Assembly: GCF_000236565.1 (NCBI RefSeq)
Contig: NZ_AHAM01000021.1
Coordinates: forward strand, 1-64,000
DNA: 64,000 nucleotides
Direction: 5' to 3'
DNA from: Mesorhizobium alhagi CCNWXJ12-2
GTDB lineage: Bacteria > Pseudomonadota > Alphaproteobacteria > Rhizobiales > Rhizobiaceae
Part shown: positions 55,018 to 64,000 of the stretch, in pieces
Numbering within the stretch: the first letter of the stretch is position 1
Layout of the letters: each line of letters starts with the position of its first letter
Notes under the pieces: generated by a model
Databases searched by the model: none
Seen by the model: only the letters and a program-made list of their open reading frames with translations
Told to the model about the DNA's origin: nothing
Translations under genes and position numbers: made by a program

Positions 55018-57573
55018 CTAAAGCGTGCGGGTCACCATCTCGACGCGGAAGCACTCGATGACGTCGCCAGCGCGCATGTCTTCGTAGTTCTGGAACGCCA
55101 TGCCGCATTCCTGGCCGGCAGGGACTTCCGACACTTCGTCCTTGAAGCGCTTCAGCGTCTTCAGCGTGCCTTCGTGAATGACGACGTTGTCGCGGATCAG
55201 GCGGACGCCCGCACCGCGTTCGACCTTGCCTTCCGTGACACGGCAGCCGGCGATCTTGCCGACCTTGGTGATGTCGAAGATCTCGAGGATTTCCGCATTG
55301 CCGATGAAGGTCTCGCGACGCTCCGGCGACAGCAGGCCCGACATCGCCGCCTTAACGTCATCCACCAGATTGTAGATGATGTTGTAGTAGCGGATCTCGA
55401 TGCCGGCGGCTTCCGCCGCCTGGCGCGCCTGCGGGTTGGCGCGGACGTTGAAGCCGATCATCGCCGCGCCAGAGGTTGCCGCCAGTGACACGTCGCTTTC
55501 GGTGATGCCGCCGGCGCCGGCGTGAACGATGCGTGCCCGCACCTCGTCGGTTCCGAGCTTGTCGAGCGCTGCAACGATAGCCTCTACCGAGCCCTGCACG
55601 TCGCCCTTGATGACGAGCGGGAACTCCTTGAGGCCGCTCGACTGCAATTGCGTCATCATCTGCTCGAGCGAACCGCGCTGGCCGACATGCTTGGCCACCG
55701 CCTTGTCGCGAGCCAGACGCTGGCGATACTCGGTGATCTCGCGGGCGCGCGCCTCATTGTTGACGACTGCGAAGCGATCGCCGGCCTGGGGCGTGCCCTG
55801 GATGCCGAGGATTTCAACCGGGGTCGCCGGGAGGGCTTCGTCGAGTTGCTCGCCGCGATCTGTGACGAGCGCGCGAACACGGCCCCACTCGCTGCCGGCG
55901 ACGACGATGTCGCCGACCAAGAGCGTGCCCGTCTGCACCAGGACGGTCGCGACAGGGCCGCGGCCCTTGTCGAGCTTGGCCTCGATGACGACGCCCTCGG
56001 CGGTGCGGTCGGGGTTTGCCTTGAGGTCGAGAAGCTCGGCCTGCAGCAGGACCGCCTCGAGCAGCTTGTCGAGATTGGTGCCCTTGGTGGCCGAGACCTC
56101 GACGTCCAGCACGTCGCCGCCCATAGATTCCACGAACACTTCATGGCGCAGCAGGTCGGCCCGGATCTTCTGGGGATCGGCCTGCGGCTTGTCGATTTTG
56201 TTGATCGCCACGATGATCGGGACACCGGCAGCCTTGGCGTGGCTGATCGATTCCACCGTCTGCGGCATCACGCTGTCGTCGGCTGCCACCACCAGAATGG
56301 CGATGTCAGTGGCCTGCGCGCCGCGGGCGCGCATCGCCGTAAAGGCGGCGTGGCCGGGCGTGTCGATGAAGGTGATCTTCTGGCCGTTTTTCTCAACCTG
56401 ATAGGCGCCGATATGCTGGGTGATGCCGCCGGCTTCGCCCGACACGACATTGGCGTTGCGAATGGCGTCGAGCAGCGAGGTCTTGCCGTGATCGACATGG
56501 CCCATGATGGTGACGACCGGCGAACGCGGCTTCAGATCCTCGGGCTTGTCTTCGACATCGAACAGGCCGCCTTCGATATCCGACTCGGCGACGCGGCGAA
56601 CCGTATGGCCGAATTCGGAGGCGATCAGTTCGGCGGTGTCGGCGTCGATCACGTCGCCGGGCTTCAGGATCTGACCCTGCTTCATGAAATATTTGACGAC
56701 ATCGACCGCGCGCTCGGACATGCGCTGCGCGAGTTCCTGGATGGTGATGGTTTCGGGCAGCACGACTTCGCGCACGATCTTCTCGCGCGGCTCCTGATGC
56801 ATGGCGCGCTTGAATTTCTCCTGGCGGCGACGCATCGACGACAGCGAGCGGGCGCGGCCGTCGCCATCCGAAGTCGCCGTGCTGAGCGTCAGCTTGCCGC
56901 GGCGCCGATCTTCCTCGCCCTTGGCCTTGGCGGGACGCGCCACTTCCGGCGTGACGATGCGCTTGATCGGCGCGCCGCGGGCGAGCGCCGGGCTCTTGCT
57001 CTTGGCCTCCGGCTCATCATCAACGCCGATGTCGGATTGCGGCGCACGGCGGCGCGCTTCTTCTTCGGCGCGGCGGCGCGATTCGGCTTCGGCCTGCAGG
57101 CGCGCTTCCTCTTCCGCCTGGCGGCGGGCGGAAGCTTCACGCTCGCGCTTGCGCAGCTCTTCCTCTTCGAGGCGGCGCTTGGCTTCCTCAAGGGCGCGCT
57201 GGCGGTCCTCGACCTCGCGAGCCTTCGAACCTTCGAGGGCGCGACGGCGCGCTTCCATCTCGCTGGTGGACAGCTCGTTCAAGACGATGTGCGGACGCTC
57301 GACCGGGGCCGCCTTGGGCGCTTCCTGCTGGACGGCCGGAGCAGCAGCCGCGGGCGCCGCCGGCTTCGGCTTGAACACCGAGGCCGCCGCGTCCGGCTTG
57401 TCGCCGGGCATCGAGAATTTGCGCTTCTTGGTTTCGACAACCACGGACTTGGTGCGCCCATGCGAGAAGTTCTGCCGCACGGTGCCCTGCTCCAGTCCGG
57501 GCCGCTTCAGCGTCAGCGTCTTTTTGGTGTTAACGCTCAGCGTGTTGTCGTCACCGGTTTTCGTATCGCTCAT
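55018..57573 (-). CDS. infB: Translation initiation factor IF-2
   Basis: An 851-residue GTPase that places initiator tRNA on the ribosome. The N-terminus has the alphaproteobacterial motif [16 protein letters not shown], followed by a long charged Ala/Arg/Glu coiled region (about residues 100-215). IF2-N is near 265-320; the G domain begins about 350 with [16 protein letters not shown], then DTPGHAAF and NKIDKPQ. C-terminal domains end in VEMVTRTL. It overlaps the ylxR gene stop by ATGA. Confidence 0.97.
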
Positions 57574-58229
57574 TCCATATCCTCTGCGGCTTCATCTCCG
57601 TCAGCAATTGCCGCAAACATTGCCCGGTCATCCGGGGATCCGCCCCGGTATCGGTCAAGCGCAACCATGCGCTTCAACACCGCTTTTCCCGCGTCTTGCG
57701 CGAGAACGGCAGCATGTATCACATTTGTACCCCCCAATGCCAAACTCAAATCGGCTTCCGAAAAAAGTTTATAGGCATGGATATGGGGTCCGCCGGCGTA
57801 GGCGGTCGCCCGCCTCGCCTGAGTGATCTTGCGCAATCCGTCCGGCGATGCCTCTTCGGCATGCAGTACGAGTAGGGCTTCGCCGCTGCGCACGACGCTT
57901 TCGACCTTGGTCGCTCCCAATGCGACGGCGCCTGCCTTGCGCGCCAGACCAAGCGCGCCGAGCGCCGATTTCGCGAGCAACGCGTCGATCATCGCGCCGA
58001 GATCCGGCGGAACGGCCACCTCTTTCCTGAACGCTCGGGAAAACAGGTTCTTGGCCGCAGCCTTTTCTATATGTAGGCGCTCGCCGGTAACCCAGCAACC
58101 GCGGCCGGGCAGGTTTCTTTTCAGATCGGGAACGATGGCGCCGTCCGGCCCGACGACGAAACGGATCAGCTCATCCGGATCGGCGCTGTTGCGCGTGACG
58201 ATGCAGGTGCGATCGTTCATCTCGTCCAA
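57570..58229 (-). CDS. YlxR-YlxQ-type RNA-binding protein
   Basis: A 219-residue protein with a YlxR (DUF448) domain at about 5-85 ([41 protein letters not shown]) fused to an L7Ae/YlxQ-like domain at about 95-190 ([44 protein letters not shown]). The usual second cysteine-rich part of YlxR is reduced. The gene sits between nusA and infB as in most bacteria, where YlxR acts with RNA or RNase P. It is coupled to infB by ATGA overlap. Confidence 0.9.
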
Positions 58230-58258: not shown

Positions 58259-59872
58259 TCACGCACCGGCGGCAAGATCGGCCGCTTCTTCTTCACCGGC
58301 CAATTCTTCCTCGGTGATCCAGCCGGCCTTGAGGCGGGCGGCCATCACCATCTGCTCGGCGTCCGCACGCGAAATCGAGTGATTTGCCAGAACGCCGGTG
58401 AAGAACTTGGTCTCGCCGTCCTTGCGCTCCTTCCAGCCGACAAGATCGTCGACCGCATAACCAGCAAAGTCCTCGATCGACTTCACGCCGTCCTCGCCGA
58501 GCGTCGCCATCATGGCGGTGGTGATGCCGGGGATTTCGCGCAGTTCGTCCAAAACGCCCAAAGCGCGGCGCTTCTCGTCATGCTCCGCTTCGATCTTGGC
58601 GAGATACTCCTTGGCGCGCGACTGGATTTCGTTAGCCGTGTCCTCGTCGAAGCCGTCGATCGAGGCGATCTCGTCCTGGTCGACGAAGGCCACTTCCTCG
58701 ACGCTGGTAAAACCTTCGGAAGCCAGCACCTGGCCGACCATCTCATCGACGTCCAGCGCTTCCATGAACAGGGTCGAACGCTCGACGAATTCCTTCTGGC
58801 GGCGTTCGGATTCTTCCTGCTCGGTGAGGATGTCGATGTCCCAGCCGGTCAACTGCGAAGCGAGGCGCACATTCTGGCCGCGGCGGCCGATGGCCAGCGA
58901 AAGCTGGTCGTCGGGCACCACGACTTCGATGCGCTCGGCATCCTCGTCGAGAACGACCTTGGCGACCTCGGCCGGTTGCAGCGCGTTGACGATGAAGGAA
59001 GCGGCCGATGGCGACCACGGAATGATGTCGATCTTCTCACCCTGCAGTTCGGCGACGACCGCCTGGACGCGCGAGCCGCGCATACCGACGCAGGCGCCGA
59101 CCGGGTCGATCGACGAATCGCGCGAAATCACGGCGATCTTGGCGCGCGAACCCGGGTCGCGGGCGACCGACTTGATCTCGATGATGCCGTCATAGATTTC
59201 CGGCACTTCCATGGTGAAGAGCTTCGCCATGAACTGCGGATGTGTGCGCGACAGGAAAATCTGCGGGCCGCGCTGCTCGCGGCGCACGTCGTACACATAG
59301 GCGCGGACGCGGTCGCCGTACTTGTAGTTTTCGCGGGGGATCAATTCGTCGCGGCGGATGATCGCCTCGCCGCGGCCGAGATCGACGATGACGTTGCCGT
59401 ATTCGACCCGCTTGACAGTGCCGTTGAGGATCTCGCCGATACGGTCCTTGTATTCGTCGTATTGGCGATCACGCTCAGCCTCGCGCACCTTCTGCACAAT
59501 GACCTGCTTGGCCGACTGGGCGGCGATGCGGCCGAAATCCATCGGCGGCAGCTGCTCGGCGATGAAGTCGCCGACCTGCGCGTCCGGATTGCGCTCGCGG
59601 GCCGAGGACAGCGCGATCTGCGTGGCGTAGTCTTCGACGTTCTCGACGACTTCCATCAGCCGCTGCAGCTTCATCTCACCGGTATTCGGATTGATGTCGG
59701 CGCGGATGTTGGTTTCCTGGCCGTAGCGCGAGCGTGCGGCCTTCTGGATCGCATCGGCCATGGCCGCGATCACGATCGATTTGTCGATAGACTTCTCACG
59801 CGCAACCGCATCGGCGATCTGCAGCAGTTCAAGTCTGTTCGCACTGACTACCATTTTCGTCTCCCGGAACAA
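58259..59872 (-). CDS. nusA: Transcription termination/antitermination factor NusA
   Basis: A 537-residue RNA polymerase-binding factor. The N-terminal domain (about 1-130) begins [25 protein letters not shown] (the start codon is preceded by a possible alternative 4 codons upstream); S1 is around 140-200 ([39 protein letters not shown]), followed by two KH domains to about 345 and two C-terminal helix-hairpin repeats ([16 protein letters not shown]..., [23 protein letters not shown]). It sits in the rimP-nusA-ylxR-infB order. Confidence 0.96.
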
Positions 59873-59903: not shown

Positions 59904-60533
59904 TCAAACTTCGGTTTCGTTCTGTTCTTCCTGGTCGTCGTCGGGTTCGCCACGACGCTTCCTGGCTTCCTTGCGCGCCTTGTTGTCCTTCGACAACGCG
60001 TCGCGAATGAGATCGTCGGTCAGGATCAACCGCGCCTCGGCGATCGCCTCGAACGGCACACGAACGCTCGGCTCCTCGCCATAAGCCGCCTGGTCGCGCT
60101 CGATGACGACGCCATCCTCGTCGGCTGACACGATCTTGCCGCGAAAGCGCTTGCGGTCGGCGACCAGGATCGACGTTTCCATCTTGACGAGATGACCGGT
60201 CCACGCGGCGAAATCGGATTTGCGGACCAGCGGACGGTCGATGCCGGGCGACGAAACTTCGAGATGATAGGCCTTGTCGATCGGATCGTCGACGTCGAGC
60301 GCCGGCGACACCGCACGGCTAACCTCTTCGCAATCCTCGACGGTCATCGTGCCGTCCTCGCGCTCGGCCATGATCTGCAGGGTCAGGCCGTTCTGGCCCG
60401 ACAGCCGCACGCGCACAAGGCGAAAGCCGATAGCGCGCAACACCGGCTGGATGATCGACGCCACGCGCGCATCCATGCCGCTCTCGCGGATGATGCGGTC
60501 GTCGCCGATGCCTTCGCCTGTGGTTTCGCTCAT
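59904..60533 (-). CDS. rimP: Ribosome maturation factor RimP
   Basis: A 209-residue protein needed for 30S assembly. The conserved core is [65 protein letters not shown], followed by a Sm-like C-terminal domain and an acidic tail. The start at 60533 (MSETTGEG) is preferred: the frame extends 24 codons upstream through a terminator-like hairpin. It heads the nusA-infB operon, 31 nt before nusA. Confidence 0.94.
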
Positions 60534-60556
60534 GCCGTCTCCGGGCGGTCCAGGTA

Positions 60557-60590
60557 ACAAAAAAGAGCGGGACCGGGTGGACCCACTCTT
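60557..60590 (-). terminator. Terminator-like leader hairpin before rimP
   Basis: On the minus strand AAGAGTGGG pairs with CCCGCTCTT (one G-U) over a 10-nt loop, followed by TTTTTTGTT. It ends about 24 nt before the rimP ATG and about 20 nt after the predicted transcription start. It could be an attenuator of the rimP-nusA-infB operon. Confidence 0.7.
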
Positions 60591-60617
60591 CGTCATACCG
60601 ACCAAGAATTTGATGCC

Positions 60618-60646
60618 GATATAGTCCTATTGGGAGTTATTTGCAA
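60618..60646 (-). promoter_or_regulatory. Candidate sigma-70-type promoter for rimP operon
   Basis: On the minus strand, TTGCAA (60641-60646) and TATATC (60618-60623) are spaced by 17 bp. Transcription would start near 60611 and meet the leader hairpin within about 50 nt. This is motif reading only. Confidence 0.55.
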
Positions 60647-60810: not shown

Positions 60811-60975
60811 ATGTCATATCGTCAACAGCGCGCGAGACTAGGCGAATTTTTCAACCTGTTCGGCAGCGCCATTGCGGCCGCCTCCGCGGTCGAGAATGGC
60901 CGCCAACCGGCAGCGCGCGATCTGCGCGCCCTGGGGATCGATCCCGCGCGGTTCCGCCAGATCAAAAGCCTCTAA
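60811..60975 (+). CDS. Small uncharacterised 54-residue protein
   Basis: I do not recognise a named family. The protein reads MSYRQQRARLGEFFNLFGSA, then IAAASAVENGRQPAARDLRALGIDPARFRQIKSL. It appears to be an amphipathic N-terminal helix with an Ala-rich middle and a C-terminal Leu-Gly-Ile-Asp-Pro-x-x-Phe motif, which resembles short conserved rhizobial proteins. AAAGGAA lies 7-13 nt before the ATG, which supports translation. It is isolated, divergent from rimP and convergent with tctA. An upstream TTG extension adds eleven residues and is less likely. Confidence 0.7.
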   Translation: MSYRQQRARLGEFFNLFGSAIAAASAVENGRQPAARDLRALGIDPARFRQIKSL

Positions 60976-61024: not shown

Positions 61025-62542
61025 TCAATCCTCGTCGCCGGCCAATTGCGCCAGTACCTTGCCTTGTCCCCGCGCCCGCAGGATCATCGGCAGGACGACG
61101 GCGGTTACCGCTAGTAGAAGTAGAACGATGGCGATCGGCGAGCCTACCAGAACAGTCGGATCGCCTTGGCTGATCGCAAGCGCGCGGCGCAATTGCTGCT
61201 CCGCCATCGGTCCGAGTATCAGCCCGACGACCACCGGCGCGATCGGGTAGCCGAAGCGCCTAAGCCCATATCCCATAAGACCAAACGCCAGCAGCATGCC
61301 GAGTTCGAAACTCGACGGGTTGGCTCCGATCGTGCCGAGCGTGGCGAACATCAGGATGCCGGCATAAAGCCAATGCGTCGGGATGCTCAACAATCTGACC
61401 CACAGCCCGATCAGCGGCAGGTTCAACACTACGAGCATGAAATTTGCGACCAAAAGGCTGGCGATCAGGCCCCAAACAAGCTGCGGATTGTTGGCAAACA
61501 GCAGCGGCCCCGGCTGCAGGCCGAATTGCTGGAATCCGGCAAGCATAATGGCGGCCGTCGCGGTCGTCGGCAGGCCGAGCGTCAGCAGCGGCACGAGCGT
61601 GCCCGCGGCGGACGCGTTGTTTGCCGCCTCCGGCCCGGCGACGCCCTCGATGGCGCCATGGCCGAATTCCTCGGGTTTCGTGGTGAGTTGCTTTTCCACC
61701 GAATAGGACAGGAAGGTGCCGATTTCGGCGCCGCCCGCCGGCATCGCCCCGATTGGAAAGCCGATAGCGGTGCCGCGCAGCCAAGGCTTCCATGAACGCG
61801 CCCAGTCCTCACGGTTCATCCACACCGAGCCTTTTACCGGCTCGATCTTCTGTTCGCGGGCGCTCTTGGTCGCCGCAACGCTCAATGCCTCTCCGACCGC
61901 AAACAAAGCGACTGCCAGCGTCGTCACCTCGATGCCGTCCAAAAGGTCGGGAATTCCGAATGCCAGCCGGGCCTGTCCGGTCTGGAGGTCGATGCCGATC
62001 AGGCCTAGCGTCAGGCCGATGGCCAGCGCCGTCAATCCGCGCAGCGCCGAATCGCCGAAAGCCGCCGAGACGGTCATGAAGGCAAGCACCATCAGCGCGA
62101 AATATTCAGCCGGCCCAAACGACAGCGCAATGCTTACGATCCAGGGCGCGATGAAAGCCAGGCCGAGTGTAGCAATGAGCCCGGCGATGAAGGATCCAAT
62201 CGCCGCGGTCGCAAGCGCCGGGCCGCCACGCCCCGCCCTGGCCATCTTGTTGCCTTCGAGCGCAGTGACGATGGAAGCGCTTTCGCCAGGCGTGTTGAGC
62301 AGGATCGAGGTGGTCGAACCGCCATACATGCCGCCGTAATAGATGCCTGCGAACATGATCAGCGAACCGGCGGGATCAAGCTTGTAGGTGACAGGCAGCA
62401 ACAGCGCGACAGTCAAGGCCGGGCCGATGCCCGGCAACACGCCGACAGCGGTGCCAAGCGTCACGCCAACCAGTGCGTAAAACAGATTGATGGGCTCGAG
62501 GGCGGTAAGCAGCCCTTGCGCGAGCAGAGCGAAAGTATCCAT
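61025..62542 (-). CDS. tctA: Tripartite tricarboxylate transporter large permease TctA
   Basis: A 505-residue inner-membrane permease with about 11-12 helices. The family signature is in [58 protein letters not shown] near the N-terminus; a second conserved region is [21 protein letters not shown] near 260. It is the last gene of tctC-tctB-tctA, 18 nt after tctB. The substrate is set by TctC and is not predictable. Confidence 0.95.
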
Positions 62543-62560
62543 GCCTTCGTCTAACCTCGC

Positions 62561-63046
62561 TTAAAATAGTCGCTCAAGGGGACCGGCGGGCAGAGCTAGC
62601 TGCAGGCCCTTTGCGAAGACGAACCAGATGGCGAAGGCGAGAACAATGCCGAGCGGCACCGTCATCCACAACGGACCCTTGCCGAAACCGCGTGCGGTGG
62701 CTGCAAAAAGCAGGCCGGTGGCGATCGAGAAGCCGACGGTTTTCAGGAGCAGCATCTGCGCCGCGAGGCCCCCGACAATCCAGAGCATCGGCGGAAAGTT
62801 CTGTTCTTCGCGCTGCGGAAAATCGCCGCGTAAAGCTACATATGCCGTACAGATCGCAAGGACAAACAGGCCGAAGGCGATCACATAGGGGAAAGTTGTT
62901 GGCCCAATCCGCGCATAGGTAGCTGCACCGCCCATATTGGCGGTGCTCCAGGCGATCACAATAGCAACCACAGCCAGCGCCGCGGCAATGACAAGCGCCG
63001 CCCGGTCGGGGCGACGCTCCTGACGTGGCTGGTTGCCGTCGCTCAT
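62561..63046 (-). CDS. tctB: Tripartite tricarboxylate transporter small permease TctB
   Basis: A 161-residue membrane protein with four predicted helices (AALVIAAALAVVAIVIAWSTA, FPYVIAFGLFVLAICTAYVAL, MLWIVGGLAAQMLLLKTVGF and MTVPLGIVLAFAIWFVFAKGL), the arrangement of TctB. A short basic N-terminus precedes the first helix. Its start overlaps the tctC stop by ATGA, and tctA follows by 18 nt. Confidence 0.9.
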   Translation of the reverse strand: MSDGNQPRQERRPDRAALVIAAALAVVAIVIAWSTANMGGAATYARIGPTTFPYVIAFGLFVLAICTAYVALRGDFPQREEQNFPPMLWIVGGLAAQMLLLKTVGFSIATGLLFAATARGFGKGPLWMTVPLGIVLAFAIWFVFAKGLQLALPAGPLERLF

Positions 63047-63987
63047 TTAACGAGGCCGATATCTTTCAGAATGGCCGAAGTCGATTCGATGTCCTTGGCA
63101 AGCTGGGCCTTGAACTCGTCGCCGGCGAGATAGGTGTTCGCCCAGCCATTGTCGGCGAGGATCTTCTTCCAGGTTTCCGACATCGCCATCTTTTCGATGT
63201 CGGCGTTTATGGCGGCCGTCTGCTCGTCGGTGATGCCGGGACCAGCCGCAACCATGCGCCAGTTCTGGATCGAAACGTCGACACCGGCTTCCTTGAAGGT
63301 CGGCGCGTCGATGCCTTCAACCTTCTCGTCGCTCGAAATGCCGATGATGCGCAACGCGCCGGCTTCGATCTGCGAGGCAAACTCGCCGTAACCCGAGATG
63401 CCGACTGTCACCTGACCGCCAAGGATGGCGGCGAGCGCTTCGCCGCCGCCGGAAAAGGCGATGTAGTTGACCTTGGTCGGGTCGACGCCGACGGCCTTGG
63501 CGATCAGGCCGGCCGTGATGTGGTCGGTGCCGCCGGCGGAACCGCCGCCCCAGGAAACCGCGCCCGGATCGGCCTTCAGCTTTTCGACCAGACCGGCCAT
63601 GTCCATGATGTCGGAAGCGGCAGGCACAACGATCGCTTCATATTCGCCGGTGAGGCGAGCGATCGGCGTTACCTGGTCGAGCGTCACCGGAGACGCATTG
63701 GTGAGAATTGCGCCGACCATGACATAACCGCCGACGATCAACTGCGACGGGTCGCCGCTAGCCTGGTTGACGAACTGGGCAAGTCCGATCGTGCCGCCGG
63801 CGCCCGGAACATTGGTCACCTGCACGTTGCCGGAAATCTTCTCGTCCTGCAGCGCGGTCTGCATCGAGCGGGCCGTCTGGTCCCAGCCGCCGCCAGGAGC
63901 GGCGGGCGCCATGATCTTGTAGTCGGCCGCGTGGGCCGGCAGCGCCAAAAAGGCGCCGAGGATGGATGCAAATACGAAATGCTTCAC
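63043..63987 (-). CDS. tctC: Tripartite tricarboxylate transporter substrate-binding protein TctC
   Basis: A 314-residue periplasmic binding protein of the Bug/TctC family. The Sec signal ends near AHAAD (about residue 20). The body has [28 protein letters not shown], a common ligand-binding loop, and [27 protein letters not shown]. The start is a GTG at 63987 with a strong AGGAGGA eight bases upstream (63994-64000). It is the first gene of the tct operon and lies at the window edge; control elements are outside. Confidence 0.93.
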
Positions 63988-64000
63988 TGAATTTCCTCCT

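Follow-up and report, generated by a model that had tools for sequence, protein, structure and literature searches.

A hairpin overlapping the leader terminator of the rimP-nusA-infB operon in Mesorhizobium alhagi and its relatives: a candidate antiterminator/terminator attenuator

The leader of the rimP-nusA-infB operon of Mesorhizobium alhagi CCNWXJ12-2 contains, upstream of its intrinsic terminator, a second hairpin (P1) at the 5' end of the RNA, built from the initial ~27 transcribed nucleotides, whose 3' strand, RAGAGU (AAGAGU in this genome), doubles as the base of the 5' arm of the terminator. Since this 6-nt strand is common to both, the two hairpins are mutually exclusive, and the best reading of their conserved pairings, judged from sequence comparison, is that of an antiterminator/terminator attenuator, which we consider probable. 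An earlier note on the same DNA, from which P1 was absent, had suggested an attenuation loop controlling the supply of NusA, IF-2 and RimP, a suggestion now well supported by conservation and by the newly found overlapping antiterminator hairpin. Attenuation at the rimP leader is itself an older idea, put forward by Naville and Gautheret in 2010 (PMC2965389); a terminator in rimP leaders was already known, and the P1 variant of the switch is new as far as the open-access literature shows, where it was not found in print.

Organization of the rimP leader

The stretch of DNA analysed here, referred to as the window, comprises 64,000 nt (NZ_AHAM01000021.1, positions 1–64,000), and the leader lies on its minus strand, as do all features given below unless indicated otherwise. 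A sigma70-type promoter was found as the earlier note had described it (60646–60618), consisting of a -35 hexamer TTGCAA at 60641–60646 and a -10 hexamer TATATC at 60618–60623 separated by a 17-nt spacer; the consensus for Sinorhizobium meliloti, in the available text of PMC2873474, is CTTGAC-N17-CTATAT. The putative +1, inferred from the spacing to the -10 hexamer, is at ~60611. P1 (AUUCUU-G-GUC-GGUAU-GAC-G-AAGAGU) is predicted at 60585–60609 from folding and cross-family comparison, and folding places the terminator hairpin, P2, at 60563–60590, with RNA arms AAGAGUGGG (60590–60582) and CCCGCUCUU (60571–60563). The corresponding DNA arms, AAGAGTGGG and CCCGCTCTT, form 9 bp, the interior of P2 contains CC/GG plus a U-U mismatch, and the first two T of the T6 tract (60559–60564) are also paired in P2. 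Promoter, hairpin and T tract (60590–60559 for the latter two) fit the interval 60557–60646 in which the earlier note had placed them, and the tract ends 25 nt before the ATG of rimP (60533).

Downstream, a Pfam search recovered the gene order rimP, nusA, ylxR, infB, so that RimP, NusA, YlxR and IF-2 are indeed encoded in succession: rimP at 59904–60533 (PF02576, PF17384), nusA at 58259–59854 (PF08529 and PF13184 on 58262–59848), a ylxR-like gene at 57570–58229 (PF04296) and infB at 55018–57573 (PF11987, PF04760). The start of nusA was set by eye at the ATG at 59854, the listed open reading frame beginning farther upstream, at a TTG at 59872. Upstream of rimP, on the same strand, lies tctA (Pfam); the region 61025–64000 also holds, upstream of tctA, two tctB-/tctC-like open reading frames recognised by eye, and together these make up an apparent tripartite tricarboxylate transporter. 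The interval separating tctA from the rimP promoter contains, on the plus strand, a 54-aa open reading frame (60811–60972) matching no Pfam family.

Taken alone, the signal in the window barely exceeds chance; it is comparison that puts it far beyond chance. A terminator scan of a 3.5-kb region returned 4 sites against 2.6 +/- 1.4 in shuffled sequences, the leader fold has a z-score of -2.59, and a promoter scan of the same region did not include among its calls the leader promoter, whose -10 hexamer ends in C where the scan wants T. A search of the M. alhagi genome found this copy of the leader and no other.

A coding role for the leader was also considered, in which the hairpin would be read through by ribosomes as part of a leader peptide or of an N-terminal extension of RimP: an open reading frame in frame with rimP runs from a TTG at 60605, and GGTATGACG includes an ATG. 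This ATG is lost in several relatives, among them L016, L018, L020, L025 and L031, and the distance between terminator and rimP varies widely, both of which speak against a coding role; the chance of either coding role seems close to negligible. A leader-peptide attenuator was rejected, as was a RimP extension, there being no conserved short open reading frame and the ATG being missing in relatives.

Conservation of the terminator

Conservation was assessed first of all in a family set of 151 Rhizobiaceae rimP loci picked by RimP protein rather than by hairpin; RimP homologues were present in 150 of the 151 family genomes, the exception being a genome that is 68% complete, and a third genome of the genus was added to give 151 loci. 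With GCTCTT as the search key, an arm of this sequence with a T-rich tail, mostly CCYGCTCTTTTTTRTT, was found upstream of rimP in 150/151 loci; the sole locus without it, L152, has a variant hairpin, and a structural rule (hairpin plus T tract) identified a terminator in all 151. Close relatives are near letter-identical from about +1 to past the T tract.

Beyond the family, a covariance model (R1) run at E 0.1 had matches in 160 of the 249 order-level genomes and in 67 of the 385 from the class, the 89 order genomes without a match being counted under strict filters that drop weak matches. Among 59 order- and class-level loci that were fetched, rimP follows in 47, to which every locus with E < 0.001 belongs, and the remaining 12, all class-level with E > 0.001, are unrelated terminators without rimP. 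Because these loci were found either by R1, which also models letters of the P1 region, or by a pattern starting inside the arm, the presence of the terminator at order and class level is given by construction, and the family set alone is free of this bias. An exact terminator pattern, searched in 84,980 genomes, gave at least 118 matches, and among the matches listed 115 lie directly upstream of rimP, none lies away from it and 3 are on sequences too short to tell. The titles available for 80 matches are nearly all recognised as names of Hyphomicrobiales; two give no more than 'Proteobacteria bacterium' and a third 'Rhodobacterales bacterium', and this third record (L231, strain BW5) has a leader closely resembling those of Roseibium, and its name may be wrong.

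For structural comparison, 368 loci were reduced to 353 with rimP, 352 with the hairpin (the sole failure of the structural rule being L367, from another family), 350 with enough upstream sequence and finally 141 non-redundant leaders, in which counts were keyed on the arm U (GTRG). A promoter-like pair, TTG at -35 and TA at -10, is present in 131/141, with a spacer of 17 in 98 of these. The terminator contains a U-G wobble whose G is kept in 140/141 leaders, as dual pairing would explain, the U being needed opposite an A in P1 as well. In a 59-row family alignment the GGG/CCC pairs G51-C68, G50-C69 and G52-C67 occur in 59, 57 and 55 rows, respectively.

Two side observations concern the vicinity of these elements. 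The position above GGG/CCC (60581 and 60572 in the window) is C-A in 20/59 rows and U-U in 16/59, and columns 55/66 are non-standard in 42 of the 52 rows having both letters, a hint that selection maintains a weak point here or that a protein makes contact. Beyond the T tract (60553–60558) the sequence RTT followed by ACC or GCC is conserved, its two T in 134/141 and 126/141 leaders, though termination should not require it; in folding, GGUA of P1 is able to pair with UACC of the read-through RNA.

The 3' arm, with the core GCTCTTT in 129/141 leaders, matches the first 7 letters of the boxA consensus GYTCTTTAANA (PMC5725501, from Gammaproteobacteria), and autoregulation of a Nus-factor gene, suhB, through boxA is known (PMC5725501); GCUCUUU might be bound by NusB-S10 after read-through and feed back on the operon. 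The AANA end of the consensus is however replaced by TTTG in the window and by T-rich sequence in nearly all 141 leaders, termination requires the T run in any case, and outside the order the 3' arm is often altered, to GCTTTTT or GCCTTTT. When the leaders of four rrn operons of the order, taken from named plasmid records, were compared, two carried GTTCTTTG, one GTTTCTTTG and one no candidate; a search for 16S genes with Rfam RF00177 gave no match in the M. alhagi genome and 8 relatives, and no paper combining boxA, NusB and rimP was found in the open-access literature. On the AANA end, the changes of the 3' arm and the rrn comparison, boxA was rejected as the main explanation, and we regard such a site as very unlikely.

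The overlapping hairpin

Of the 141 leaders, 125 remain after excluding 16 without a promoter call; in these the shared arm ends a median of 27 nt from +1, and when the transcript up to the arm is folded at least 4 of the 7 arm nucleotides are paired upstream in 121/125. The folding energy of P1 is below 95% of shuffles in 73/125 leaders, and with a fixed 20-nt upstream stretch the same 5% threshold is passed by 70/125 rimP leaders but by 2/66 control terminators, the latter drawn from 118 named loci and three Ensifer regions rather than from whole genomes. Counting pairs is less informative: at least 4 arm nucleotides are paired in 101/125 rimP leaders and also in 35/66 controls, and the number of arm pairs exceeds 95% of shuffles in only 9/125 leaders. 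Controls often reach four pairs because chance pairing comes easily to purine-rich arms; what carries the signal is energy and covariation.

In most cases the strands of P1 also fit each other better than those of other leaders. Native strands out-pair the mean of swapped ones in 107/141 leaders (mean -7.4 vs -6.0 kcal/mol), in a test whose 5' stretches extend into the promoter; with transcribed sequence only and one leader per family group, native strands beat cross-family swaps in a median of 31 of 37 groups (range 27–32), these groups not all being distinct, as family codes and NCBI family names may coincide, six being class-level codes outside the order and 11 leaders without a family label being excluded. 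At pair 29-44 of the 59-row alignment U-A occurs in 38 rows, C-G in 14, U-G in 3, G-U in 1 and C-C in 3, while the terminator partner of this pair is U in 59/59. In other families P1 varies in size, and its letters are wholly different yet paired, as in CUUAAAC/GUUUGAG (L168) and UCUCGA/UCGAGA (L167), and further rebuilt pairs are CUCAUACG/GCGUAGUGAG (L188) and CUUAUAG/CUAUGAG (L194). The hairpin is weak in L184, L209 and L247, and L151, whose genome measures 1.5 Mb, has none. Four leaders from one other family of the class (L201, L202, L203 and L205), of the form GGGTGGGCC..GGCCCGCTCTTTTTT, are without a short P1 beside the arm, and in L201 and L205 the arm can pair only with a more distant ACCC.

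The tests of covariation are mixed. In the family alignment 83.4% of the P1 cells are paired, against 76.6% in shuffles, and the covariation score is also higher; P1 pairs altered in both strands are no more numerous than in shuffles (4 vs 3.9). A tree-aware sign test of pair 29-44 gave p = 1 and was underpowered, the tree offering no more than 3 to 5 changes; of 205 leaders with full-length RimP it kept 119, and the 86 dropped included possible mismatches, namely 8 with A or G as the 5' base and 4 with an arm base other than A or G. RNAalifold, applied to the family alignment, predicts the terminator alone and does not show P1.

This consensus fold would agree with another explanation, namely that the hairpin ends transcription early and constitutively, or blocks read-through from upstream, and that the 5' hairpin only stabilises the RNA end, with no switch involved. 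The full terminator is also more stable than the P1 state, by a median of 4.4 kcal/mol (n = 125), and the position of tctA on the same strand provides a source from which read-through could come. Against it, a promoter-like pair precedes the terminator in 131/141 leaders, a pure terminator would have no need of a P1 that shares its arm and keeps pairing it across families, and the energy signal of P1 is rare at other terminators, as the controls indicate. We therefore consider this explanation rather unlikely, and the attenuator the better account of the shared arm.

Relation to a reported rhizobial RNA

The proposed short RNA has very probably been detected before. Valverde et al. (2008, PMC2573895) placed the S. 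meliloti RNA Sm76, with an expected length of 60–150 nt, between SMc02910 and SMc02911 and, in the available text, reported that its sigma70 promoter and terminator are conserved to Mesorhizobium, Ochrobactrum and Brucella. Their Northern blots showed bands of ~90–100 and ~180–210 nt, a 'complex banding pattern' said to require more work, and a supplementary figure gives alternative structures for two possible transcripts (PMC2573895). Sm76 is overlapped by SmelC037, a 94-nt mRNA leader at 267059–267152 (Schlueter et al. 2010, PMC2873474).

In S. meliloti the 4.5S RNA lies 7.1 kb upstream of Sm76/SmelC037 on the same strand, and in three Ensifer/Sinorhizobium genomes the rimP leader follows it, also on the same strand, at distances of 7.3, 8.5 and 9.5 kb; the upstream neighbour is divergent in both S. 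meliloti and S. fredii. We take SMc02911 to be rimP, an assignment supported by this similar spacing. By synteny, Sm76/SmelC037 is probably the rimP leader of S. meliloti, resembling it as a short RNA with a conserved sigma70 promoter and terminator in a similar position relative to the 4.5S RNA. In the window a bacterial small SRP RNA (RF00169) is found at 1297–1393, 59 kb downstream of rimP on the same strand; since it lies 7–10 kb upstream of rimP in the three Ensifer/Sinorhizobium genomes, the order has been rearranged here.

The two descriptions differ from ours in some respects: this RNA was presented as an sRNA candidate and later as an mRNA leader, in published accounts whose available text makes no link to rimP-nusA, and both the Sm76 bands and the 94-nt SmelC037 are longer than the ~55–60 nt expected from the conserved promoter. 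A second, Sinorhizobium-specific promoter of Sm76, noted by its authors (PMC2573895, available text), could account for the longer band. As the original listing among sRNA candidates with their own promoter and terminator (PMC2573895) would suggest, the short RNA might instead act in trans and merely lie upstream of rimP without common regulation. Such a function is hard to reconcile with the pattern matches listed above, in which no copy was placed away from rimP, with the later deep sequencing, which in its available text classed SmelC037 as an mRNA leader of type 3 (PMC2873474), or with a ~55-nt RNA that is paired in one or the other state save for a few nucleotides, and we hold it to be highly unlikely.

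Possible mode of action

If the leader acts as an attenuator, its behaviour would depend on the timing of folding. In the window the state with P1 and a small hairpin has an energy of -17.7 kcal/mol and the full terminator one of -21.2, a gap of 3.5. Folds of the growing chain give P1 first and next, beside it, a small GGG...CCC hairpin; the two outer pairs of P1 are lost at 46–48 nt, and the full terminator becomes the best fold only once the CUCUU arm is free, with 50 nt exposed. With CUCUU withheld, the upstream strand holds the arm in 122/125 folded leaders.

RNA polymerase would initiate at ~60611 and the first ~27 nt would fold as P1, sequestering RAGAGU. As long as CUCUU is still inside the polymerase, P1 and the GGG...CCC top hairpin would be preferred, and transcription would tend to read through into rimP-nusA-ylxR-infB; if instead the lower stem zips in the exit channel and ousts P1, transcription would stop after ~55 nt. 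At the termination point the last ~9–14 nt of the transcript are within the polymerase, and the lower stem must therefore form in the exit channel at the expense of P1.

This is a step at which NusA could intervene. NusA favours hairpins in the exit channel (PMC12288461, available text), and work on E. coli from the 1980s, cited in PMC2965389, reported that NusA represses the rimP-nusA operon. Given these two points, a negative loop is the most economical reading: higher NusA would lead to more termination and hence to less NusA, IF-2 and RimP. NusA would be the most likely effector of the leader, an assignment that we put forward tentatively, at slightly less than even odds. We would go further only as a possibility that is by no means the expected outcome, namely that the leader is a ligand-free NusA meter, in which a ~55-nt RNA keeps P1 and the terminator balanced within a few kcal/mol and NusA occupancy decides; the wobble, the mismatch and the GCUCUUU arm might then have been held across Hyphomicrobiales while P1 was rebuilt family by family, which we hold with the same reserve.

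Comparison with known leaders

Among the closest known systems is the rimP leader of PMC2965389, with an intrinsic terminator between the promoter and rimP of rimP-nusA-infB, as is also found here by sequence and conservation. Its 5' arm is G-rich (GGG) and its 3' arm C-rich (CCC), with GUGGG and CCCGC as the counterparts here; its terminator lies 4–130 nt before the gene, against 25 nt here and more in some relatives; and NusA was likewise the proposed regulator. The c...g motif beside its GGG/CCC is absent here, the window having the U-U mismatch instead, and no antiterminator was visible in it save in some Gammaproteobacteria with tandem terminators, whereas here P1 competes with a single terminator. 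The corresponding Rfam family, RF01770 (rimP), shares the gene context of the M. alhagi leader but does not match it at E up to 10 or at its gathering score of 47, and its best match in the whole genome scored 19.9 bits at another place. Matches of other Rfam elements, ar35 and sbrA, were weak and far below the gathering score, so that a known Rfam element was rejected, as was a riboswitch or T-box, in view of the absence of any Rfam family above cut-off at the leader and of the median of 27 nt that separates +1 from the shared arm's end.

The metY-rimP leader of E. coli has a terminator of the form GGGC-UUUA-GGCCC + T7 directly before rimP, as here, but differs in an additional upstream terminator and in that, by eye, the hairpin before the last terminator has no overlap with its arm; this hairpin, GUUAU..AUAAC, lies directly before the last terminator in the E. 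coli rimP leader (L376, 1490–1620, minus strand). The suhB leader of E. coli resembles our proposal in that a Nus-factor gene is autoregulated through its leader (PMC5725501), with the difference that boxA binding, a block of translation and then Rho-dependent termination are used there, and two exclusive hairpins with an intrinsic terminator here.

Conclusions

In conclusion, autoregulation of nusA-infB has been proposed in many bacteria without a visible antiterminator, and the leader described here offers a concrete candidate switch for it. It also ties to the rimP-nusA operon a rhizobial RNA, Sm76/SmelC037, that has probably been seen before but lacked an explanation, represents a leader form in the M. 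alhagi genome that the Rfam rimP model does not cover, and may provide a very small system, of ~55 nt with neither ligand nor peptide, for direct study of NusA and of folding in the exit channel. Kept across rhizobia and their relatives, this two-way switch probably allows the cell to hold its production of NusA and IF-2 in check.
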